A stretch of DNA of 64,000 nucleotides. It comes from Stella humosa (GTDB taxonomy: Bacteria > Pseudomonadota > Alphaproteobacteria > ATCC43930 > Allostellaceae). Both the position numbers and the translations under genes were made by a program. The stretch spans positions 2,678,001 to 2,742,000 of the forward strand of contig NZ_AP019700.1 in assembly GCF_006738645.1 (NCBI RefSeq), given 5' to 3'. Of the stretch, positions 11,145 to 57,817 are shown in pieces; position 1 is the stretch's first letter; the number at the start of each line of letters is the position of its first letter. The notes under the pieces are model-generated. The model did not search any database and had not been told where the DNA came from. It saw nothing but the letters and a program-made list of their open reading frames with translations.

Positions 11145-11894
11145 CTATCGCGAGAGGATGCGGTCGATCCAGTGGAGGAAGCCGCCCGGCTCGGCCTTGA
11201 TGACCGGGGCCAGCGATGCCAGCGCGCCGGTAGACCCGGCCTGAGTCCGGCCGGCGCGCGGCGGCAGGTACTTGTTGGTCGGCTTGTAGCCCAACTCGGG
11301 CAGCAGGTCGTAGCCGCCGCGCTCGCGCACGATGGTCGAGACCTCGCTGTCGGGATCGCCCAGGTCGCCGAAGTGCCGGGCCGAGGCCGGGCAGGTGGAG
11401 ACGCAGGCCGGCACGCGCTCCTCGACCTCCAGCCGCTCGTTGTAGATGCGGTCGATGCAGAGCGTGCACTTCTTCATCACGCCCTGGTCCCAGTCATACT
11501 CGCGCGCGCCATAGGGGCAGGCCCACGAGCACAGCTTGCAGCCGATGCAGATATCCTCGTTGACGAGCACGATGCCGTCCTCGGTCCGCTTGTAGGAGGC
11601 GCCGGTCGGGCAGACCTCGACGCAGGCCGGCGTCTCGCAATGCAGGCAGGACTTGGGGAAGTGGACGGTGCGGCCGGCGGCACCATCGCCCGCCTCGAAG
11701 CTGTGGATGCGGTTGAACCAGACGCCGGCCGGGTCGCTGCCATAGGGGTCGCGGTCGGTCAGCGGGGCGGCATGGCCGCCGGTGTTCCATTCCTTGCAGT
11801 TGACCGCGCAGGCATGACAGCCGACGCAGATGTCGAGGTCGATGACGAGCCCCAGCTTGCGGGCGCCGGGCGCCGTGGCGGGAAGGGCGGTCAT
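11145..11894 (-). CDS. soeB: Four-cluster ferredoxin subunit of molybdoenzyme (SoeB/DmsB-like)
   Basis: 249-aa electron-transfer subunit with sixteen cysteines in four cluster motifs: C23/26/29/33 (CVGCHACAVNC), C83/86/91/95, C116/119/122/126 (CIGCKLCSWAC) and C143/146/164/168. This is the standard four [4Fe-4S] layout of DmsB, NrfC, PsrB and SoeB proteins. There is no signal sequence, so the enzyme should face the cytoplasm, as described for SoeABC. It overlaps the catalytic gene by ATGA (start 11894, upstream stop at 11891), indicating translational coupling. It shuttles electrons between the molybdopterin subunit and the membrane anchor. Confidence 0.88.
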   Translation of the reverse strand: MTALPATAPGARKLGLVIDLDICVGCHACAVNCKEWNTGGHAAPLTDRDPYGSDPAGVWFNRIHSFEAGDGAAGRTVHFPKSCLHCETPACVEVCPTGASYKRTEDGIVLVNEDICIGCKLCSWACPYGAREYDWDQGVMKKCTLCIDRIYNERLEVEERVPACVSTCPASARHFGDLGDPDSEVSTIVRERGGYDLLPELGYKPTNKYLPPRAGRTQAGSTGALASLAPVIKAEPGGFLHWIDRILSR

Positions 11895-14780
11895 CGGCCG
11901 GACCTGTTGCGGCGGAAGATGGCGCCGAAGCGCGATATCGTCGGCGCCTCCTTCATCCCGGGCGGTCTCGGCACGGGCGGGAAGGCGGGTTCGGTCATGG
12001 TCAGGGGAACGGGCGCCTTCTCGACGCGGACGCGCAGGTCGTACCAGGCGGCCTGGCCGGTCACCGGGTCGGCATTGGCATAGCGCAGCCCGTCGCCCTC
12101 CGGTGGCAGCAGCTCGGAGATGACGTGGTTCAGGAGAAAGCCCTTGCGGCTTTCGCCGGCGTCCTCGGCCAGGTTCCAGGTGCCGGACCGCTTGCCGATG
12201 GCGTTCCAGGTCCAGACGGTGCCGGGCTCCACGCCCTCCATCAGCTTGGCCTGCACGGTGATCGCGCCATGGTGGCTGGTGACGGTGACCCAGTCGTCGT
12301 CGACGATGCCCAGACCCTCGGCCGTGACGCGGTTCATGTGCAGCCGGTTGCGGCCATGGATCTGGCGCAGCCAGGCGTTCATCGACCCCCAGGAATGGTA
12401 CATGGCGGCCGGGCGCTGGGTGACGGCATGCAGCGGAAAGGCTTCACGGTCGACCGAGGCATGCTCGAACGGCCGGTACCAGATCGGCAGCGGATCGAAA
12501 TGCTGGCGCACCCGCTCGCGCTGGCGCTCGGGCGGCTGCACCGTACCGTGCCCTTCGGCCGCCAGGCGGAAGCGCTGCAGCACCTCGGAATAGAGCTGCA
12601 GGATGATCGGCTGGGCGGCACCGATGAAGCCGAAGCGGGCAGCCTTCTCGAGGTAGGCCTTGTTGGCGTGCTTGTAGTAGCGCTCCTCGGGCGCGAACTC
12701 GTGGCGCCAGAAGCACTCGTTGGCGATGTAGGCCTCGACCTGCTTCGGGTTCGGCGCGCCACGCCCCTCGGTCTCGCCATTCTCGCCGCGCCAGCCCGCC
12801 AGCATGCCGATGCCGGGTGCGCGCTCATGGTTGGCAATGTAGTCGGGGTAGAGGCCGGGGAATCGCGGCGAGCCATCCGGCTTCACCAGGCCGGGCAGGC
12901 CCAGGCGCGCGCCCAGCTCGATCAGCACGTCCTGGAACGGGCGGACGTTGCGGTCGGGCTCGACGATCGGCTGGCGGATCGCGTCGGCCGCGCCGTCCGC
13001 ATCGCAGATCGGCCGGTCGAGCAGCGAGATGCAGTCGTGCCGCTCCAGGTAGGTCGTGTCGGGCAGGATCAGGTCGGCATAGGCCACCATCTCGGAGGCG
13101 AACGCGTCCGAATAGATGATGTGCGGGATCTTGTACTCGCCGGTTGCCGCATCCTTGTCGGTCAGCATGGCGATGGTGCCCGGCACGTTCATGGCCGAGT
13201 TCCAGCTCATGTTCGCCATGAACATGAACAGCGTGTCGATCGGGTAGGGGTCACCCTTCCAGGCGTTGGTGATGACCATGTGCATCATGCCGTGGGCGGC
13301 CATCGGCGCGTCCCACGAATAGGCCTTGTCGATGCGCTGCGGCGTGCCGTCGGCATCGACCAGCAGGTCCTCCGGCCCGGTGACGAAGCCGAGCGGCGGG
13401 CCCGCCATCGGCTTTCCGGGTTCGATCGTGCCGGCCTTGCCGGCGGGCTTGATCGGCGGCGGGCAGGGGCGGGGAAGGGGGCTTGTAGCGGAAGCCGCCG
13501 GGGGTATCGATGCTGCCCAGCAGCATCTGCAGCAGGTGGATGGCGCGGCAGGTGTGGAAGCCGTTGGAATGGGCCGAGATGCCGCGCATGGCATGCATGG
13601 CCACCGGCCGGCCGACCATGCGCTCGTGCCGGCGTCCGGCCCAGTCGGTCCAGGGCTGCTCGATCACCACCTCTTCGGAGAAGGCGGCGTGGGCCAGTTC
13701 GGCCGCGATGCGGCGGATGGTGGCCGCCGGCACCCCAGTCTCCGCCGCCACCGCTTCCGGCGCGTATTGCGGGTCGAGATATCTGCCGGCGAAAAGCTGG
13801 AAGGCCGGCACCACCCGACGCCCGTCGGCCAGGGTGTGGTCGCCCACCATGGCCGGCGATACCTCCGCCGACATGGCGTCGCCGGGCGCATCGGTATTGC
13901 GGTCCCAGCACAGCGGCCGGCCCTCGCCGTCGCGGGCGAAGAGGCCGTCCTCGGCGGTGCCAGGCGCCTGGATCACCAGCCAGTGGGCGTTGGTGTAGCG
14001 GGCGAGATATTCCAGATCGACCTTGTCGGCGCGCAGCAGCTCGTGGATCAACGCCAGGACGAACAGGCCGTCCGTGCCGGGGCGGATGCCGACCCACTCG
14101 TCGGCGATGGCGGAATAGCCGGTGCGCACGGGGTTGACCGAGACGAACTTGGCGCCGCGCCCCTTGATATGGCCGAGCCCGATCTTGATCGGGTTGGAAT
14201 CATGATCCTCGGCCACGCCGAACATCAGGAAGTAGCGGGTGTGGTGCCAGTCCGGCTCGCCGAACTCCCAGAAGGAACCGCCGATGGTGTAGAGCCCGGC
14301 GGCGGCCATGTTGACCGAGCAGAAGCCGCCATGGGCGGCATAGTTGGGCGTGCCGAACTGGCTCGCCCACCAGCCCGTCAGGGCCTGGCTCTGGTCGCGG
14401 CCGGTGAAGAAGGCCAGTTTGCGCGGATCGGTCTTGCGGATATGGCCCAGCCAGCCCTCGGCGATCGCCATCGCCTCGTCCCAGCCGATCTCCTTGAACT
14501 CGCCCTTGCCGCGCTCGCCCACGAGCAGCAGCGGCTGCGACAGGCGCGCCGGGGCGTACTGCGTCATGATGCCGGCCGAGCCCTTGGCGCACAGCACGCC
14601 GCGGTTCACCGGATGGTTCTTGTTGCCCTCGATATAGCGGACCGTGCCGTCCTTCAGGTGGACCTTGATGCCGCAACGGCAGGCGCACATGTAGCAGGTC
14701 GTGAACTTCACCTCGTCCGAGACGGTGGGGGAAAGGTCGACTTCCTCCTTCACCGTGCGGAACATATCCTGGATGCTCAT
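11891..14780 (-). pseudogene. soeA: Molybdopterin oxidoreductase catalytic subunit (SoeA-like), frameshifted
   Basis: About 960 aa once repaired, close to the usual SoeA length. The N-terminal part (start ATG at 14780, MSIQDMFRTVKEEV) carries the [4Fe-4S] ligands C29, C32, C36 and C64 (CYMCACRCG ... CAKG) and the molybdopterin domain (GRDQSQ, GGFCSVNMAAAG). There is no Tat signal, so it is cytoplasmic. The frame runs to GGFRYKP and then breaks in the C-rich tract complementary to 13471-13481. The remaining C-terminal half (IKPAGKAGTIEPGKPMAGPP onward, with the molydopterin dinucleotide-binding region) continues in another frame to the stop at 11891. Out-of-frame translation ends at 13251. Dropping one C, or adding two, restores one reading frame. 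Family similarity fits sulfite dehydrogenase (quinone), but other CISM substrates are not excluded. It may be a sequencing indel in a homopolymer or a true inactivation. Confidence 0.75.
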
Positions 14781-19886: not shown

Positions 19887-20756
19887 TCAGTTGCCCTTGG
19901 CGACCAGCGCCATCGACACGCTGCGTGGGCCGCCGGGCAGGCCGGTATATTCCACCGTGATCGTCCGCCCGATCGCCGGCACGGCCGGCAGCAGGGGCGA
20001 GAAGGACCCCAGGCTGATGATGTCGCCGGCCTTCAACCGGCGGCCGTTCGCCTTCAAGTCCTGCACCAGCCAGCGCACGACATTGATCGGGTGATCGAGG
20101 ACGGCGGCACCCGTCGCCTCGGCCAGTTGTTTGCCGGTGTCATCCACCATCCGGATCTTCATCGCCGCCAGCGCTGCGGCAAAGGCCTCGGTCGCCTCGA
20201 CCGGGATGTCGGCGCCGACGACGCCCAGGCGGGCGGCGACGTTGATCGCCGTCAGGTTGCCGCCATCCAGCAGTTCGCCCGGCGCGTAGGCGAGGTCGGG
20301 CAGCTCGATGAACGGCACCACCGCCGACAGATTGCGCAGGACGTCCAGGTCCGACGCGGCGTCGTTGATCGCGCCGTCGCGCACCCGCACCAGCAGGTCC
20401 GCCTCCATCACCGGGATCGCGCCATAGGGCACGGCCACGCGCGCGCCATCGGCCAGAAGCATCTTCTCCAGCAGCACGCCGCGCACCGGATGGGGAACCT
20501 TGAAGCGGTCCTGCGTCGCCTTGCTGGTCAGCCCGACCTTGTAGCCGACCGGGGCGCCGAGGTCGGCCGACAGCGCGGCGACGATGGCGTCCTGGGCGCA
20601 CAGCCCGTCCGCCACCGACAGGCCTGGGCCGAAGCTGCGGGCCGGGGTCAGCGACTTGTAGTCGGCGACGAAGCGCCCGATCGCGGCTGCGTCCGGGCAG
20701 GCGGCATGGACGGAAGTAGCGGCCATGACGATGGCTGCGGCAATGGCGATGCGCAT
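19887..20756 (-). CDS. MhpD-family (2-keto-4-pentenoate) hydratase with signal peptide
   Basis: 289-aa protein of the fumarylacetoacetase-like/MhpD hydratase fold, whose members hydrate 2-hydroxypenta-2,4-dienoate-type acids or decarboxylate 4-oxalocrotonate. Seen: GYKVGLTSK, GVLLEKMLL, MEADLLVRV with an acidic metal-binding pair, and DHPINVVRWL. Unusually, the first ~20 residues (MRIAIAAAIVMAATSVHAAC) form a Sec signal with an Ala-x-Ala type cleavage site, so the mature enzyme should be periplasmic, unlike classical cytosolic hydratases. It is the last gene after livF (74-nt gap) in the ABC-transporter operon, which hints that the transported ligand or a precursor is its substrate. The start at 20756 is chosen because it yields the signal peptide. 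Confidence 0.8.
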   Translation of the reverse strand: MRIAIAAAIVMAATSVHAACPDAAAIGRFVADYKSLTPARSFGPGLSVADGLCAQDAIVAALSADLGAPVGYKVGLTSKATQDRFKVPHPVRGVLLEKMLLADGARVAVPYGAIPVMEADLLVRVRDGAINDAASDLDVLRNLSAVVPFIELPDLAYAPGELLDGGNLTAINVAARLGVVGADIPVEATEAFAAALAAMKIRMVDDTGKQLAEATGAAVLDHPINVVRWLVQDLKANGRRLKAGDIISLGSFSPLLPAVPAIGRTITVEYTGLPGGPRSVSMALVAKGN

Positions 20757-20830
20757 GGACTGGATCCTCCGGGTGCTTATGCTTGCTTGGCCACAGTATT
20801 CGCGCGGACGGCCGCCGGCGGCAACGCCCT

Positions 20831-21546
<716 letters not shown>

Positions 21547-21550
<4 letters not shown>

Positions 21551-22308
21551 GCCGCGTCGTCGCCCAGATAGGCCTGGCGCACCGCGGCATCGGCGCGCAC
21601 CGCGGCCGGCGTGCCACAGGCGATCACCCGGCCTTCGGCCAGCACGGTGATGCGGTCGGCCAGGGCGAAGACGGCATCCAGGTCATGCTCGACCAGGACA
21701 ATCGCCGGCCGGTCGTCGGCCCGTGCGCGCAGGTCGCCCAGCAGCGCCACCATCGCGCGGGATTCCTCCGGCCCGGTGCCCGCCGTGGGCTCGTCCAGCA
21801 GCAGCAGCCGCGGCCGGCCGGCCAGGGCCATCGCCAGTTCGAGCTGGCGCTGCTGGCCGTGGGCGAGATCGCCGGCCGCCCGTGCCTGCGCCCCTTCCAG
21901 CCCGACGCGCGCAAGCAGCGCGCGGGCATCGGCCAGCAGTGCCGCATCCCGCATCGCCGGGCGCCACAGGCCGAAGCCCTGGCCGCTTGCCGCCAGGACC
22001 GCCAGCATCGCGTTGCGCAGCACGCTCTGGTCGCGCACCACGGCGGTGATCTGGAATGCCCGGCCGATGCCGCGGCGGGCGCGGGCGGCGGCTGGCAGGC
22101 GGGTGACGTCATGACCGTCGAGCGCGATCGTGCCGGCATCCGGCCGGGTCTCGCCCGCCAGCATCGCCAGGAAGCTGCTCTTGCCGGCCCCGTTGGGCCC
22201 GATGACGGCGTGCGTCTCGCCCGGCAGCACTGCGAAATCGACCGCGTCGACGGCGACCAGGGCGCCGTAGCGCCGCGTCAGGCCGCGGACCGCCAGCAGC
22301 GGCGTCAC
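21547..22308 (-). CDS. livG: Branched-chain amino acid-type ABC transporter ATP-binding protein (LivG-like)
   Basis: 253-aa ATPase with Walker A GPNGAGKSS, Walker B LLLLDEPTAGTGPEES (the PTAG extension typical of LivG) and a His-switch EHD. The signature region reads LAHGQQRQLE, the usual LivG variant of LSGGQ. GTG at 22306-22308 is taken as start because it overlaps the livM stop (GTGA), gives the normal length and begins MTPLLAVRGLTRRYG. Part of a tightly packed livK-H-M-G-F operon. Confidence 0.92.
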
Positions 22309-51004: not shown

Positions 51005-53284
51005 ATGGCCACGGATTCCGCCGTCGGTGTGACGAAGCAACCGAAGCGGCTACTCGACTGGTTGAGGCGGTTCGGCGTCGGGCGCAAGCTCGCGGTCGCG
51101 CTGGCATTGGCTGCCCTGGTCTCGGGCATCGCCACCTATGTCGTCATCACCAGCAAGCCGCCGCTCGGGCCGGACCCGAACGTCGTCCTGCTGCTGCTCA
51201 ACCTCGACCTCGTCCTGCTGCTGTTGCTGGGCGCGGTGGTGGCAAGGCGGCTGGTGGCGCTGTGGGTCGAGCGTCGGCGCGGCATGGCCGGCGCCCGGCT
51301 GCATGTCCGCTTCGTGGCCCTCTTCAGCCTGCTGTCGGTCACGCCGACCATCATCGTCGCGGTGTTCTCGTTCCTCTTTTTCAATTTCGGCATCCAGAAC
51401 TGGTTCAGCGAGACGGTGCGTACCGCCGTCGTCGAATCGCGGGCGGTCGCCTACGCCTATCTGGAGGAGCACCAGAACGTCATCCGCGCCGACATCTCGG
51501 CGATGGCAGCCGACCTCAACCGCGACGCCTCGCTGCTGATGAACAACCAGCAGCGCTTCAACCAGATCGTCTCGACCCAGGCCCGCGTGCGCTCGCTGAG
51601 CGAGGCCATGGTGTTCGACCGCACCGGCCGGGTGCTGGCGCGATCCAGCATCAGCTTCGCCCTGGAATTCGACCCCGTGCCGGAATGGGCGATGGCGGAG
51701 GCACGGTCGGGCATGATCGCGGTACTGACCAGCGAGACCGATGACCGCGTGCGTGCGCTGTCCCGGCTCGACGAGGACAACAGCGCCTTCCTCTATGTCG
51801 GCCGCTTCATCGACCCGCGGGTCATCGGCCATCTGGAGCGGACGGAGAAGGCGGTGGCCGAGTATCGCGACCTGGAGGGGCGCGGCTCGGGCATTCAGAT
51901 CACCTTCGCGCTCGTCTTCCTGGTGGTGGCCTTGCTGCTCCTGCTGGCCGCGGTGTGGGCCGCCCTCATCCTCGCCAACCGGCTGGCCCAGCCCCTGGGC
52001 GCCCTGGTCGAGGCGGCCGAGCGGGTGCGCGGCGGCGACCTCGGCGTGCAGGTTCGCGAGCGCCAGGACGGCGACGAGATGGATACCCTCAGCCGCGCCT
52101 TCAACCGCATGACGCGACAGCTCCAGTCCCAGCGCGGCGAACTGATCGAGGCCAACCAGCAGCTCGAGACGCGTCGTCGCTTCACCGAGATGGTGCTGGC
52201 CGGCGTCTCGGCCGGGGTCGTCGGTCTCGATCGGGACGGGGCCATCAACCTGCCGAACCGCTCGGCCAGCGTCCTGCTCGGCATCGACCTCGACCAGTGG
52301 ATCGGCGCCGATCTGGCCCAGCCGGTGCCCGAGATGGCCGCGCTGCTGGACCGGGTGCGGGCGGGTGACGGCCGGTCGATCCAGGACCAGGTGGAACTGG
52401 TACGCGACGGGCGCAAGCGCACGCTGATCGTGCGCCTGGCGGCCGAGAAGGCGGGCGAGGATACCCAGGGCTATGTCGTCACCTTCGACGACATCACGGA
52501 GCTGCTGTCGGCCCAGCGCAAGGCCGCCTGGGCCGATGTCGCGCGGCGCATCGCCCACGAGATCAAGAACCCGCTGACTCCGATCCAGCTTTCCGCCGAG
52601 CGCCTGAAGCGGCGCTACGGCAAGGAGATCACGTCCGATCCCGAGACGTTCCACCTCTGCACCGACACCATCATCCGCCAGGTGGGCGACATCGGCCGCA
52701 TGGTCGACGAATTTTCCTCCTTCGCTCGCATGCCGGCCCCGGTGATGCGCGAGGAGGACGTGACCGACATCTGCCGCCAGGCGGTCTTCCTTCAGCGCAG
52801 CGCCCGCCCCGACCTCCGATTCGGGCTGGAGATCACGGGCGACCGCCGGCCGGTCCGCTGCGACCGCCGGCAGATCACCCAGGGCCTTACCAACCTGCTG
52901 CAGAATGCCGTCGACTCGATCGACGGCCGCGACAGGACCGGCGAGGCCCCGCCGGCCGGCGCGGTCGACGTGCAGGTTTCGTTGGATGGAGAGGCCGCCC
53001 TGATCGTTGTCGAAGACAATGGGCGCGGCCTGCCGGCCGAAGGACGGGAACGCTTGACCGAACCCTATGTTACAACCCGAGCGAAAGGGACCGGCCTGGG
53101 GCTCGCCATCGTGAAGAAGATCATGGAGGATCACGGCGGCGACCTGTTGCTGGACGACCGTCCCGGCGGCGGCGCACGGATCACCCTGGTGATACCCTAT
53201 CCCGCAGTCCCGCAGCCGGCGACCGAAACGCCCTTGACGGATGTCGAGGCGGCCGCAAGAAAGTCCGGCACCCATGGCGCATGA
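51005..53284 (+). CDS. ntrY: Nitrogen regulation sensor histidine kinase NtrY
   Basis: 759-aa membrane kinase. Three N-terminal transmembrane helices (within ~20-130), a periplasmic region (~130-300), another helix (~300-325), HAMP (LAQPLGALVEAAERVRGGDL), PAS (~385-490), HisKA (DVARRIAHEIKNPLTPIQLS) and HATPase (VVEDNGRGLP, TRAKGTGLGLAIVKKI). The partner is NtrX, which overlaps its 3' end by 11 bp. NtrYX is linked to nitrogen, redox and envelope control in alphaproteobacteria. Confidence 0.95.
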   Translation: MATDSAVGVTKQPKRLLDWLRRFGVGRKLAVALALAALVSGIATYVVITSKPPLGPDPNVVLLLLNLDLVLLLLLGAVVARRLVALWVERRRGMAGARLHVRFVALFSLLSVTPTIIVAVFSFLFFNFGIQNWFSETVRTAVVESRAVAYAYLEEHQNVIRADISAMAADLNRDASLLMNNQQRFNQIVSTQARVRSLSEAMVFDRTGRVLARSSISFALEFDPVPEWAMAEARSGMIAVLTSETDDRVRALSRLDEDNSAFLYVGRFIDPRVIGHLERTEKAVAEYRDLEGRGSGIQITFALVFLVVALLLLLAAVWAALILANRLAQPLGALVEAAERVRGGDLGVQVRERQDGDEMDTLSRAFNRMTRQLQSQRGELIEANQQLETRRRFTEMVLAGVSAGVVGLDRDGAINLPNRSASVLLGIDLDQWIGADLAQPVPEMAALLDRVRAGDGRSIQDQVELVRDGRKRTLIVRLAAEKAGEDTQGYVVTFDDITELLSAQRKAAWADVARRIAHEIKNPLTPIQLSAERLKRRYGKEITSDPETFHLCTDTIIRQVGDIGRMVDEFSSFARMPAPVMREEDVTDICRQAVFLQRSARPDLRFGLEITGDRRPVRCDRRQITQGLTNLLQNAVDSIDGRDRTGEAPPAGAVDVQVSLDGEAALIVVEDNGRGLPAEGRERLTEPYVTTRAKGTGLGLAIVKKIMEDHGGDLLLDDRPGGGARITLVIPYPAVPQPATETPLTDVEAAARKSGTHGA

Positions 53285-54677
53285 CATCCTGATCGTCGAC
53301 GACGAGGCCGACATCCGCATGTTGATTGCGGGCGTGCTGCGCGACGAAGGCTACGCGACCCGCGAGGCCGGCGATTCGCGCGCGGCCATCGCCGCGGTGC
53401 GTGCCAGGCGGCCCAACCTCGTCATCCTCGACATCTGGCTGCAGGGCAGCGAGCTCGACGGGATGGGCATCCTCGACGTGCTGCGGCGTGAGCACCCCGG
53501 CCTGCCGGTGCTGATGATCAGCGGCCATGGCACGATCGAGACCGCGGTATCGGCTATCAAGCTCGGCGCATACGACTTCGTCGAGAAGCCCTTCAAGACC
53601 GACCGCCTGCTGGTGCTGATCGAGCGCGCCATCGAGGCCGCCCGCCTCCGGCGCGAGAACGAGGAACTGCGCCTGCGCACCGGCGGCTCGTTCGAGCTGG
53701 TGGGCGCGTCGTCGGCCATCGGCCAGATCCGCCAGGCGATCGAGCGCGTGTCGCCGACCGGCAGCCGCGTGCTGGTCACCGGCCCCGCCGGTGCCGGCAA
53801 GGAGGTGGTGGCCCGCCTCATCCACAACCAGTCGCGCCGCGCCGACGGCCCGTTCGTCGTCATCAACTGCGCGACGATGCGGCCAGAGCGGCTGGAGGTC
53901 GAGCTGTTCGGCACGGAAGGGGCCGATGGCGCGGACGGCCGCCGCAAGGTCGGCACCTTCGAGCTGGCCCACAGCGGTACGCTGTTCCTCGACGAGGTCG
54001 CCGACATGCCGCTGGAGACCCAGGGCAAGATCGTCCGCGCCCTCCAGGACCAGACCTTCGAGCGCGTCGGCGGCTCCAGCCGGGTCGAGGTCGATGTCCG
54101 CGTCATCGCGTCGACCAACCGCGACCTGACGGCGGAGATGGCGGCCGGGCGCTTCCGCGAGGACCTGTTCTATCGCCTGAACGTCGTGCCGATCCGGGTG
54201 CCGTCGCTGCGCGAGCGGCGCGAGGACATCCCCGTGCTGGCCCGCCACTTCATGGCCCGTTCGGCAGAGACCTCGGGCCTGCCGCCGCGGGTGCTGGGGG
54301 AGGATGCGCTGGCCGCCCTCCAGGCCTACGAGTGGCCCGGCAACGTGCGCCAGCTCCGCAACGTCATCGACTGGCTGCTGATCATGGCGCCCGGCGACGG
54401 CCGCGAGCCGATCCGCGCCGACATGCTGCCGAGCGAGATTGGCTCGACCACGCCCGCCGTCCTGCGCTGGGACAAGGCGGGCGAGATCATGACCCTCCCG
54501 TTGCGCGAGGCGCGCGAAGTGTTCGAGCGCCAGTACCTCCTGGCCCAGCTTACCCGGTTCGGCGGCAACATCTCGCGCACCGCCTCCTTCGTCGGCATGG
54601 AGCGGTCGGCCCTGCACCGCAAGCTGAAGTCGCTCGGCGTCAACGGCGACGAGCGCTCGCTGCGGATCGCTCCCTAG
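53274..54677 (+). CDS. ntrX: NtrX-type response regulator
   Basis: 467-aa regulator: receiver (ILIVDDEADIRMLIAG, Asp in LVILDIWLQGSELDG), AAA+ domain with Walker A GPAGAGKEVVARLIH and Walker B LFLDEVADMPLE, and Fis-type HTH (GGNISRTASFVGMERSALHRKL). The sigma-54-contact GAFTGA loop is missing; the segment reads FGTEGADGADGRRKVGTFE, the usual state of alphaproteobacterial NtrX, which therefore may not activate sigma-54 in the classical way. The start ATG 53274 overlaps ntrY. Confidence 0.94.
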   Translation: MAHDILIVDDEADIRMLIAGVLRDEGYATREAGDSRAAIAAVRARRPNLVILDIWLQGSELDGMGILDVLRREHPGLPVLMISGHGTIETAVSAIKLGAYDFVEKPFKTDRLLVLIERAIEAARLRRENEELRLRTGGSFELVGASSAIGQIRQAIERVSPTGSRVLVTGPAGAGKEVVARLIHNQSRRADGPFVVINCATMRPERLEVELFGTEGADGADGRRKVGTFELAHSGTLFLDEVADMPLETQGKIVRALQDQTFERVGGSSRVEVDVRVIASTNRDLTAEMAAGRFREDLFYRLNVVPIRVPSLRERREDIPVLARHFMARSAETSGLPPRVLGEDALAALQAYEWPGNVRQLRNVIDWLLIMAPGDGREPIRADMLPSEIGSTTPAVLRWDKAGEIMTLPLREAREVFERQYLLAQLTRFGGNISRTASFVGMERSALHRKLKSLGVNGDERSLRIAP

Positions 54678-54698: not shown

Positions 54699-56075
54699 AT
54701 GAAGGTCGTCATCTGCGGGGCGGGGCAGGTGGGCAGCAGCATTGCCCGCTACCTGGCCGGGGGCGGCAACAGCGTCACTGTCATCGACCAGTCGGCCGAG
54801 CTGATCCAGCGGCTGTCGGATACGCACGACGTGCGCGGCATCGTCGGCCACGCCTCCCACCCCGACGTGCTGGCGGAAGCCGGCGCGGAGGAGGCCGACA
54901 TGATCATCGCGGTGACCTATGCCGACGAGGTCAACATGGTCGCCTGCGAGGTGGCCCATGCGCTGTTCAACGTGCCGACCAAGATTGCCCGCATCCGCGC
55001 CCAGGTCTACCTGAAGCCGCGCTGGCGGACGCTCTTCGCCAACGACCGCCTGCCGATCGACGTGATCATCTCGCCCGAGATCGAGGTCGCCCACGCCATC
55101 ACCCGTCAGCTCGAGGTGCCGGGCGCCTTCGACGTGCTGTCGATGGCGGGCGGGCTGGTGCGCGTGGTGGGGGTGCGGTGCCTGGCCGACTGCCCGATCG
55201 TCAATACGCCGCTGCGCCAGCTCTCGGGCCTGTTCCCGGACCTCAACATCGTCGTGGTCGGGCTGATCCGCGACGGCAAGCCGATCATCCCCGAGCGCGA
55301 CCAGATGATGTTGGCGGGCGACGAGGTCTATTTCGTGGCCGACACCAAGCACGTCCAGCGCGCGATGCTGGCCTTTGGCCACGAGGAGCAGCCGGGCCGT
55401 CGGGTCGTCATCATCGGCGGCGGCAATATCGGCATCTACCTGGCCGAGGAGATCGATGAGCGCTTCCCGCAGGTGTCGATCAAGCTGATCGAGCTGGACA
55501 AGGCGCGTGCCGCAGAAGCCAGCCAGCGCCTGAGTGGGGTCGTCGTCTTCAATGGCGACGGGCTGGATACTGAGATCCTGGAAGAGGCCAACGTCGGCAC
55601 GGCCGAGACGGTGATCGCCGTCACCGACGACGACGAGGTCAACGTCCTGAGCTCGATCCTGTCCAAGCGCATGGGTGCCGAGCGCGTGGTCACGCTCATC
55701 AACAAGCCGACTTACGAGCCGCTGGTGACGAACCTCGGCATCGACGCGGTCATCAACCCGCGCACCATCACCGTGTCGCAGATCCTCCAGCATGTCCGCC
55801 GCGGCCGCATCCGCGCCGTGCATACGCTGCGCGAGGGCTTCGGCGAGATCATCGAGGCCGAGGCCATGGAGACATCGGCCCTGGTCGGGCGGCCGCTGCG
55901 CGAGATCAACCTGCCGGCCGGCATCATCGTCGGCGCGGTCGTGCGCGGCACCACCGTCATCAGCCCGCGCGGCGCCACCGTCATCAAGGCCGACGACCGG
56001 GTGGTGCTGATGGCCGCACCCGGCGCCGTGCGCAAGGTCGAGAAGATGTTCGCCGTGCGCCTCGAATATTTCTGA
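54699..56075 (+). CDS. trkA: Trk system potassium uptake regulator TrkA
   Basis: 458-aa peripheral membrane protein with two RCK units, each an NAD(H)-binding Rossmann domain plus a TrkA-C domain. The first fold starts KVVICGAGQVGSSIARYLA, the second RVVIIGGGNIGIYLAEEI at ~residue 233. It gates the TrkH/TrkG potassium channel. Conserved neighbour of ntrX in this group, 21 nt downstream, and likely part of the same unit. Confidence 0.95.
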   Translation: MKVVICGAGQVGSSIARYLAGGGNSVTVIDQSAELIQRLSDTHDVRGIVGHASHPDVLAEAGAEEADMIIAVTYADEVNMVACEVAHALFNVPTKIARIRAQVYLKPRWRTLFANDRLPIDVIISPEIEVAHAITRQLEVPGAFDVLSMAGGLVRVVGVRCLADCPIVNTPLRQLSGLFPDLNIVVVGLIRDGKPIIPERDQMMLAGDEVYFVADTKHVQRAMLAFGHEEQPGRRVVIIGGGNIGIYLAEEIDERFPQVSIKLIELDKARAAEASQRLSGVVVFNGDGLDTEILEEANVGTAETVIAVTDDDEVNVLSSILSKRMGAERVVTLINKPTYEPLVTNLGIDAVINPRTITVSQILQHVRRGRIRAVHTLREGFGEIIEAEAMETSALVGRPLREINLPAGIIVGAVVRGTTVISPRGATVIKADDRVVLMAAPGAVRKVEKMFAVRLEYF

Positions 56076-56123: not shown

Positions 56124-57002
56124 ATGTCGCGCATCGCCTACGTCAATGGTCAGTACGTTCCCCATCACGAAGCCGCCGTCCATGTCGAGGATCGCGGCTA
56201 CCAGTTCGCCGACGGCGTCTATGAGGTCGTCGCCATCGCCAAGGGCGCGCTGATCGACGAGGAAGGCCACATGGTGCGGCTGGAACGCTCGCTCGACGAG
56301 CTGCGCATCGCCCGGCCGATGAGCCGCGCCGCCCTGGGCCACATCATGCGCGAGGTGGTGCGCCGCAACCGCGTCGTCGACGGCATCATCTACATGCAGC
56401 TCACCCGCGGCGTTGCCCCGCGCGACCATGCCTTCCCGGCCAATGCCGAGACCTCGGTCGTGATGACGGCCAAGCGGACCAAGCCCGCCAACCCGGCCTT
56501 GATGCGCGACGGGGTGAAGGTCATCACCATTCCCGACATCCGCTGGGAACGCTGCGACATCAAGTCGGTGGCGCTGCTGCCGAACTGCCTGGGCAAGCAG
56601 CAGGCACGCGAGGCCGGCGCGCACGAGGCCTGGCAGGTGGACGAGCGCGACGGCATGGTCGAGGGGCTGAACAAGATCGACCTGCTGGAGGCCGAGGACC
56701 GCGCGGAGCTGGTCCGCCAGGCCGAGAGGCAGGACGGGCAGGTGGCCTTCTCGGCCATCAGCGGCGAGGGGCTGGACCGTCTGCTGACCCTCATCGACCA
56801 GCGGCTGGGTGCCTCGCGCACGCTGCACGACCTGGAACTCGACGTACGCGACGGCGGTGCCATCGCCTGGCTCTACAGCCATGGCGAGGTGATCGAGCGG
56901 GCCGACGAGGGGGAGGTGGCGCGCCTGCGCGTCAGCCTCGACCCGGCCGATGTCGCGCGCTTCCGCCAGCGTCACCACCCCTTGCGCATGGTCACCGTGT
57001 GA
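56124..57002 (+). CDS. Chimera: N-terminal D-amino-acid aminotransferase fused in frame to C-terminal HflX
   Basis: 292-aa frame of two unrelated halves. Residues 1-~179 are a class IV (D-alanine-type) aminotransferase: MSRIAYVNGQYVPHHEAAVH, GYQFADGVYEV, catalytic Lys147 in CDIKSVALLPN, up to DERDGMV, where family members continue TEGSSSNAW. Residues ~182-292 are the end of the GTPase HflX: the G4 motif LNKIDLL, the G5-like FSAISGEGLDRLL and the C-terminal domain (GAIAWLYSHGEVIE, VSLDPADVARFRQRH). The G1-G3 motifs of HflX and the PLP-phosphate-binding half of the aminotransferase are absent, so neither activity is expected. In related genomes trkA is followed by dat, hfq and hflX, and all DNA between the two junction points (56658-56667) is missing here. 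It is either a genomic deletion or a misassembly. Confidence 0.85.
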   Translation: MSRIAYVNGQYVPHHEAAVHVEDRGYQFADGVYEVVAIAKGALIDEEGHMVRLERSLDELRIARPMSRAALGHIMREVVRRNRVVDGIIYMQLTRGVAPRDHAFPANAETSVVMTAKRTKPANPALMRDGVKVITIPDIRWERCDIKSVALLPNCLGKQQAREAGAHEAWQVDERDGMVEGLNKIDLLEAEDRAELVRQAERQDGQVAFSAISGEGLDRLLTLIDQRLGASRTLHDLELDVRDGGAIAWLYSHGEVIERADEGEVARLRVSLDPADVARFRQRHHPLRMVTV

Positions 57003-57817
57003 TGAAAGTCGACGTCCCCGCTGTAGCCGGCATCATCGCGGCGGTCGCGGCCGAAGAAATCGTGCCGCGCTTTCGCCGCCTGGCGACGGGCGATATCCGC
57101 GAGAAGAAGCCGGGTGACCTGGTGACGGTGGCCGACGAGGCGACCGAGCATGCGCTCGACCGCCGCTTCCGCGATCTCATGCCGGGATCGGTCGTGGTCG
57201 GCGAGGAGGCGGTCGCCAAGGATGCCGGCATCCTGGCCCGCATCGAGGAAGAGGCGCCGGCCTGGATCATCGACCCGGTCGACGGCACGGCCAACTTCGC
57301 GGCCGGCCTGCCGCTTTTCGCGGTCATGGTCTCGCTGGCCTGGAAGGGCCAGGCGATCGCGGCCTGGATCCACGACCCGCTGACCGGCGTGATGGTGACG
57401 GCCGAGCGGGGCGAGGGTGCCTGGATGGCAGGCCAGCGCCTGAAGGTCGCCGCCTCCAACGACGTCGCCAGCATGTCGGGTGCGGTCAGCTTCCGCTACG
57501 GCAAGCGCCCGTTGATCCGCAAGATCGCCGGCCGCACCGAGCGCGTCGGCTCGGTCTTCCAGCTACGCTGCGCCGGCCAGGAGTACCTGGCCCTGACCCG
57601 CGCCCAGAGCCATTTCTCGCTCTATCACCGGCTGATGCCGTGGGACCATGCCGCCGGCCAGTTGATCCACACGGAGGCCGGCGGCGTCAGTGCGCGCCTC
57701 GACGGCTCGGCGTACCGCCCGTCGCACCTGGATGGCGGCCTGCTGCTGGCGCCCGACCAGGCCTCCTGGGACGCCATCCACCGCGTGCTGGTGGGAAAGC
57801 CGGAGGAACGCGTCTAA
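57002..57817 (+). CDS. Inositol monophosphatase-family phosphatase
   Basis: 271-aa Mg2+-dependent phosphatase of the IMPase/CysQ/FBPase superfamily. Metal ligands lie in VVVGEEAV (Glu), WIIDPVDGTANFAAGLPLFA (DPxDGT) and the late RLMPWDHAAGQLIHTEAGG (WDxAAG). It may act on inositol phosphates, histidinol phosphate or 3'-phosphoadenosine nucleotides; family members differ little by motif. ATG at 57002 shares a base with the stop of the chimeric gene (TGATG), suggesting it was coupled to hflX. Confidence 0.9.
   Translation: MKVDVPAVAGIIAAVAAEEIVPRFRRLATGDIREKKPGDLVTVADEATEHALDRRFRDLMPGSVVVGEEAVAKDAGILARIEEEAPAWIIDPVDGTANFAAGLPLFAVMVSLAWKGQAIAAWIHDPLTGVMVTAERGEGAWMAGQRLKVAASNDVASMSGAVSFRYGKRPLIRKIAGRTERVGSVFQLRCAGQEYLALTRAQSHFSLYHRLMPWDHAAGQLIHTEAGGVSARLDGSAYRPSHLDGGLLLAPDQASWDAIHRVLVGKPEERV

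Follow-up and report, generated by a model that had tools for sequence, protein, structure and literature searches.

In the reference assembly of Stella humosa ATCC 43930 (AP019700; the genus is now named Allostella), we found one open frame of 292 codons in which the start of a D-amino-acid transaminase gene (dat) is joined to the end of hflX. It occupies positions 56124-57002 on the plus strand of the window, the 64,000-nucleotide stretch of DNA analyzed here. Compared with relatives, this locus lacks hfq and a HAD hydrolase gene entirely, together with the end of dat and the first seven tenths of hflX. Our analysis confirms the fused frame, and also that hfq is missing from the reference assembly. 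We favor a very recent loss in a single culture, or a slip of the assembly, over an evolved species trait.

The fused frame and its locus in Stella relatives

The 5' part of dat (codons 1-179, 56124-56660, plus strand) and the 3' part of hflX (56661-57002, plus strand; the end of the G domain and the C-terminal domain, in frame and with its own stop codon) were assigned by family models and by comparison with relatives. Against PRK06680, a subfamily model of D-amino-acid transaminases, residues 1-180 of the fusion align with positions 1-180 of 286. The match of residues 182-285 to the HflX model PRK11058 (positions 316-419 of 426) is weak, at 19.4 bits. The hflX assignment is firmer from the alignment with relatives, in which codons 180-292 are the end of hflX: the hflX half (residues 177-292 or 177-291) is 84, 83 and 70% identical to the hflX ends of three Stella relatives. 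The reading of the initial annotation, one frame with a dat start and an hflX end, is thus borne out.

Neither half is complete. The dat part lacks the last 113 codons of the 292-codon dat of S. vacuolata. In Pfam, the fusion matches Aminotran_4 (PF01063) at positions 1-151 of 223 and HflX_C; intact S. vacuolata Dat covers PF01063 from 1 to 223, so the class IV aminotransferase domain of the fusion is incomplete. The fusion also falls below the curated transaminase cut-offs, with 258.4 bits against 320 for NF005209 (PRK06680) and 167.3 against 277.45 for TIGR01121, the model matches ending at 180 of 286 and 174 of 276, respectively. The C-terminal third of the transaminase fold completes the cofactor site, and this third is gone, since the dat part stops at position 180 of the PRK06680 model. 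S. vacuolata HflX carries PF13167, PF16360, PF01926 and HflX_C, of which the fusion retains HflX_C only. The HflX remnant begins before the NKxD motif and runs to the end. An AlphaFold2 model of the fusion has a mean pLDDT of 66.8 and a pTM of 0.40, with residues 124-184 around the junction below 50 (the alignment held 25 sequences, so the model is weak evidence). The fusion protein is predicted from its domain content to be inactive both as a transaminase and as a GTPase. No match spanning both halves was found among the 40 relatives searched.

Upstream of the fused frame are an intact ntrX-like response regulator gene (53241-54677, plus strand) and an intact trkA-like gene (54699-56075, plus strand; 458 aa, 89% identical to S. 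vacuolata), both named by gene order and not by family search. Downstream, an intact inositol monophosphatase-family gene (56999-57817, plus strand) overlaps the fused frame, which agrees with the earlier observation that the frame and the overlap with the next gene are kept. In relatives too this gene directly follows hflX. Three Stella relatives were compared: S. vacuolata ATCC 43931 (AP019702), Stella sp. ATCC 35155 (AP019701) and the MAG JADZBA010000182. All three have dat, a HAD hydrolase gene, hfq, hflX and the inositol monophosphatase gene in a row. The trkA gene precedes dat in S. vacuolata and Stella sp., and the MAG contig starts at dat. In each relative dat and hflX are two separate genes, with the matching stretches about 2.3 kb apart. 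Counted from the junction, the stretch absent in S. humosa is 2,324 bp in S. vacuolata, 2,352 bp in Stella sp. and 2,313 bp in the MAG; by blastn, the two window pieces are separated by 2,306 bases in S. vacuolata and 2,346 bases in Stella sp. The comparison with sister strains therefore gives three intact loci and one, that of S. humosa, without 2.31-2.35 kb.

In S. vacuolata the absent segment holds the last 113 dat codons, the HAD hydrolase gene (PF13419), hfq (83 aa; PF17209, 113.7 bits) and hflX codons 1-288 of 402. The lost share of hflX comprises the N-terminal and middle regions and the matched GTPase part (residues 172-273). Within the limits of the assembly, the evidence supports the proposed deletion, in which dat lost its end, hfq disappeared altogether and hflX lost most of its GTPase part. 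The gene order assumed for it, ntrX-trkA-dat-hfq-hflX, was correct but incomplete, as all three relatives have the HAD hydrolase gene between dat and hfq. In an excerpt of PMC2848018, S. meliloti has the order ntrX-trkA-dat-hfq-hflX. Its hfq-hflX locus resembles that of S. humosa in having the same neighbors in the same order, and both ends of the locus are in place; S. humosa differs in lacking about 2.3 kb of the middle. Relative to the S. meliloti order, the HAD hydrolase gene is an addition of the Stella relatives that is lost in S. humosa.

The junction was first placed at 56658-56667. A junction does exist, but alignment with the three relatives moves it to 56655-56660 (plus strand): dat is traceable through 56660 and hflX from 56661, with no inserted bases. 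The junction bases in S. humosa are ATGGTC, identical to dat of Stella sp. ATCC 35155 at this site, and dat of S. vacuolata and the MAG has ACGGTG. The hflX genes of all three relatives have ATGATC, TC being identical on both sides. The near-repeat ATGRTC is thus 6 bp with one mismatch and 2 bp exact, as judged from the relatives. Two exact base pairs are easily given by chance. An open frame across the junction is a 1-in-3 event and is therefore no evidence of function.

hfq, hflX and dat in the rest of the genome

The loss read from the window holds for the whole S. humosa assembly, a single contig of 5,832,650 bp (5.83 Mb) in which the window occupies positions 2,678,001-2,742,000. A search of this assembly with the Hfq profile gave no match. 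The same profile matches 36 of 41 genomes (S. humosa and 40 relatives), including the three Stella relatives, and 5 of 14 control genomes; the other four of the 41 without a match are fragmented assemblies of 480-960 contigs. S. vacuolata Hfq as query found nothing in the S. humosa genome at E values up to 10, in a run without a positive control, and on this null result a diverged Hfq overlooked by the profile was rejected. The 2,341-bp segment of S. vacuolata gave only four matches of 30-60 bp in the S. humosa genome (best E 1.5e-4). Relocation of the segment was rejected, as no copy was found in the assembly. No full HflX scored over the TIGR03156 cut-off in the S. humosa genome: the best match reached 56.3 of 216.75 bits, and there were six sub-cut-off matches of 23-56 bits. 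Nor was any stand-in for Hfq or HflX found in the assembly. The assembly is without hfq. Six further class IV aminotransferase matches are present, only 26-38% identical, and because of these paralogues the transaminase function may be backed up.

We surveyed 388 genomes of the class, each at least 97% complete, that were drawn evenly from a larger group and include S. humosa. Hfq was found in 352 and 36 gave no match. Among the 20 listed of these 36, only three are larger than 2 Mb: S. humosa, a 3.7 Mb genome and a 5.6 Mb genome in 630 contigs. For both of the other large genomes, genomes of the same genus do have an Hfq match. Among the genomes listed, large and complete alphaproteobacterial ones without Hfq are rare. 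A literature search of titles and abstract beginnings found no mention of Hfq in Stella.

Age of the loss and competing explanations

Substitution patterns were compared among S. humosa, S. vacuolata and Stella sp. For the dat part (codons 1-176), dN/dS between S. humosa and S. vacuolata is 0.098, against 0.068 between the two intact sisters; for the hflX part (codons 182-292) the values are 0.198 and 0.161. The intact neighbors give 0.187 (trkA), 0.173 (phosphatase) and 0.041 (ntrX) between S. humosa and S. vacuolata. The dS of the remnants to S. vacuolata is about 0.46-0.48. Residues unique to S. humosa, S. vacuolata and Stella sp. number 12, 3 and 8 in the dat part and 4, 6 and 8 in the hflX part, one of the Stella sp. 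residues being an alignment-edge gap. A binomial comparison of S. humosa-only with S. vacuolata-only residues gave p 0.035 (uncorrected) for the dat part, p 0.75 for the hflX part and p 0.23 for the sum. Most S. humosa-only residues also occur in other homologs: 10 of 12 in the dat part (32 others) and three of four in the hflX part (34 others), the fourth site having no data. The excess in the dat part could reflect some time without selection. An old loss would have let both remnants drift. Neither long decay nor a selected fusion is clearly indicated by the remnants, whose pattern resembles that of the intact sister genes. It appears to be the pattern of intact genes cut recently, or of genes never cut; lacking clear decay, the remnants point to a loss that is either very recent or not real.

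The S. humosa assembly was made with Canu and polished with Pilon, and both sisters are Unicycler hybrid assemblies (PMC6687932). The 25,819 Nanopore reads of S. humosa have a mean length of 3,340 bp (PMC6687932; raw reads, DRA008500). By arithmetic from these figures the Nanopore depth is about 15x; the short reads used for polishing amount to about 125x (140x total depth in the table of that paper minus the long reads). For the same type strain, an excerpt of PMC8414978 names a further assembly, that of S. humosa DSM 5900 (RJKX00000000). We carried out two surveys of ORFs shared with the sisters, using mechanical ORFs with identity and overlap filters and not curated genes. Over a stretch of about 400 kb that includes the locus, S. 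humosa has 130 of the 137 shared ORFs at full length; two are split, two fall outside the compared stretch and three are partial (dat, hflX and an antisense shadow of dat). The same survey gave 119 full, 0 split, 1 partial and 14 outside for S. vacuolata (134 ORFs), and 168 full, 4 split, 1 partial and 2 outside for Stella sp. (175 ORFs). Frequent deletions in the S. humosa assembly were considered and rejected, as no other was seen among the 137 shared ORFs of this survey. One split gene lies within the window at 11891-14780 (minus strand), where a shift in C runs near 13444-13461 divides it into two frames. Its counterpart is intact in S. vacuolata (963 aa) and also in Stella sp., and by eye is molybdopterin oxidoreductase-like. 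The shift is probably a leftover sequencing error and possibly a real frameshift.

The explanation that we prefer, with modest confidence, is a single spontaneous deletion of about 2.3 kb, very recent, in the lineage of the sequenced ATCC 43930 culture. The near-repeat ATGRTC would be the point at which such a deletion joined dat codon 179 to hflX, and the probable route is end joining or slippage at short repeats; we infer this route because the shared stretch is very short. The loss would have taken hfq and the HAD hydrolase gene, along with the end of dat and, in hflX, the N-terminal and middle parts as well as most of the GTPase part, leaving a frame open by chance and a presumably inactive product with an unfinished transaminase and only the end of the GTPase. 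On this reading the culture that was sequenced carries natural mutations in hfq, hflX and dat, which the species at large probably does not. Deletions between short repeats in bacterial chromosomes have a short shared stretch, a clean joint and a lost internal segment. S. humosa has the same joint features, but its shared stretch is very short. The deletion is supported by the clean two-sided match to relatives, the absence of inserted bases and the short near-repeat, and further by the lack of any segment copy, Hfq or full HflX in the assembly, by remnants that look recently intact and by the finding of no other deletion-cut shared gene in 400 kb. Against it stand the long-read depth of about 15x, the C-run shift in the window, the 12 versus 3 changes in the dat part, an exact repeat that may be only 2 bp and so at chance level, and the cost of losing Hfq.

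This cost is documented in other Alphaproteobacteria. According to excerpts of two papers, Caulobacter without hfq doubles in about 250 min versus 90 min and has shape defects and irregular cell dimensions, loss of hflX alone gives neither growth nor shape defects (PMC5578688), and S. meliloti hfq mutants have growth defects (PMC2848018). The hfq deletions constructed in Caulobacter crescentus and S. meliloti are, as described there, likewise alphaproteobacterial and Hfq-less in a normally Hfq-bearing group. S. humosa differs in that its deletion was not constructed, that hflX, dat and the HAD gene are lost too, and that the loss may be absent from the living strain. Since Hfq loss is costly, a sweep in culture would need a bottleneck; the cost argues against long persistence in nature and for a culture bottleneck or an assembly error. 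Growth before DNA extraction lasted 8 days for S. humosa, compared with 3 for S. vacuolata and 6 for Stella sp. (PMC6687932). The 8-day growth fits a slow mutant and also ordinary strain differences, and proves nothing.

An assembly collapse had been named in the initial annotation as the main competitor. In its classic form, the collapse of a repeat, it was ruled out, because the junction shares at most 6 bp and no long repeat lies at the breakpoints. A plain assembly error is a real possibility, although we lean against it. The culture would then be intact for dat-HAD-hfq-hflX, and Canu would have dropped 2.3 kb, for example at a read with an internal skip, which polishing with short reads did not repair. 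The low long-read depth, the use of Canu here and of hybrid assembly for both sisters, the C-run frameshift that resembles a leftover error, the presence of hfq in all three relatives together with its costly loss in other Alphaproteobacteria, and the remnants without clear decay are all consistent with such an error. The exact junction without stray bases and without a collapsible long repeat argues against it, as do the 125x of short reads for polishing, the lack of a second such deletion among the 137 shared ORFs and the frequency of split ORFs (2/137), which is not higher than in Stella sp. (4/175), though S. vacuolata has 0/134.

The suggestion of a genome lacking Hfq holds for the assembly and does not extend to a naturally Hfq-less organism, given the freshly cut look of the remnants and the low Nanopore depth. 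If hfq, hflX and dat had been lost long ago throughout S. humosa, with adaptation to life without Hfq, the reference assembly would agree, as would the modest surplus of residues unique to S. humosa in the dat part. Such an old loss seems improbable to us, for a dead remnant should gather disabling or radical changes over a dS of 0.46-0.48, and here the frame remains open, with a low dN/dS and no acceleration in the hflX part. It is likewise hard to credit that the star-shaped S. humosa, with a genome of 5.8 Mb, stably does without Hfq, HflX and Dat; if true, its Hfq-bearing sisters would be a natural comparison for cell form and for small-RNA control without the chaperone. We give very little credence to a fusion that works as a new protein under selection. 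The open frame, the retained overlap with the next gene and the low dN/dS in both parts would suit it, but the low dN/dS is explained by intact ancestors, the protein ends too early in the transaminase model and lacks most of the HflX GTPase, and the AlphaFold2 model is poor (weak evidence, as noted). An old fusion under selection is also unlikely by dN/dS and the unique residues, and by the lack of a both-halves match in 40 relatives.

Should the ATCC stock really carry the deletion, work on star-shaped cells would have an hfq hflX dat mutant as its reference strain. Data on the growth, shape and small RNAs of ATCC 43930 would need reading in that light, and the strain would offer a means, already at hand, of testing the loss of Hfq in an alphaproteobacterium. 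If the joint is an assembly slip, the reference record needs correction, or S. humosa will be listed as Hfq-less in gene-presence surveys.

Other split and joined frames near the locus

The second split S. humosa ORF of the 400-kb survey is the counterpart of a 705-aa S. vacuolata ORF. The survey extended to 800 kb, in which hflX was removed by the filters, counted 131 shared genes for S. humosa (119 full, 3 split, 1 partial, which is dat, and 8 outside the stretch), 170 for S. vacuolata (118 full, 0 split, 52 outside) and 163 for Stella sp. (155 full, 3 split, 5 outside). It added little because the extra stretches are poorly collinear. A scan for ORFs that join two sister ORFs flagged four in S. 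humosa against S. vacuolata and four against Stella sp.; the other four directions gave 2, 3, 1 and 1. Flagged ORFs other than dat::hflX were set aside, being by eye frameshifts, antisense ORFs or shared states. A 576-aa ORF in the window (19887-21617, minus strand) matches the start of one and the end of a neighboring S. vacuolata ORF. It probably represents the older state and not a loss in S. humosa, since Stella sp. has no gap there. Outside the scrambled region described below, clean S. humosa gaps against both sisters number two, dat-hflX and one of 1.2 kb near contig position 2,829,870. The latter lies outside the window, and in S. vacuolata the segment holds an ORF that by eye is peptidase-like. 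From position 1 to about 10190, the window matches its sister counterparts in many scrambled pieces of about 67-72% identity, a pattern that would fit large repetitive or multi-copy genes.
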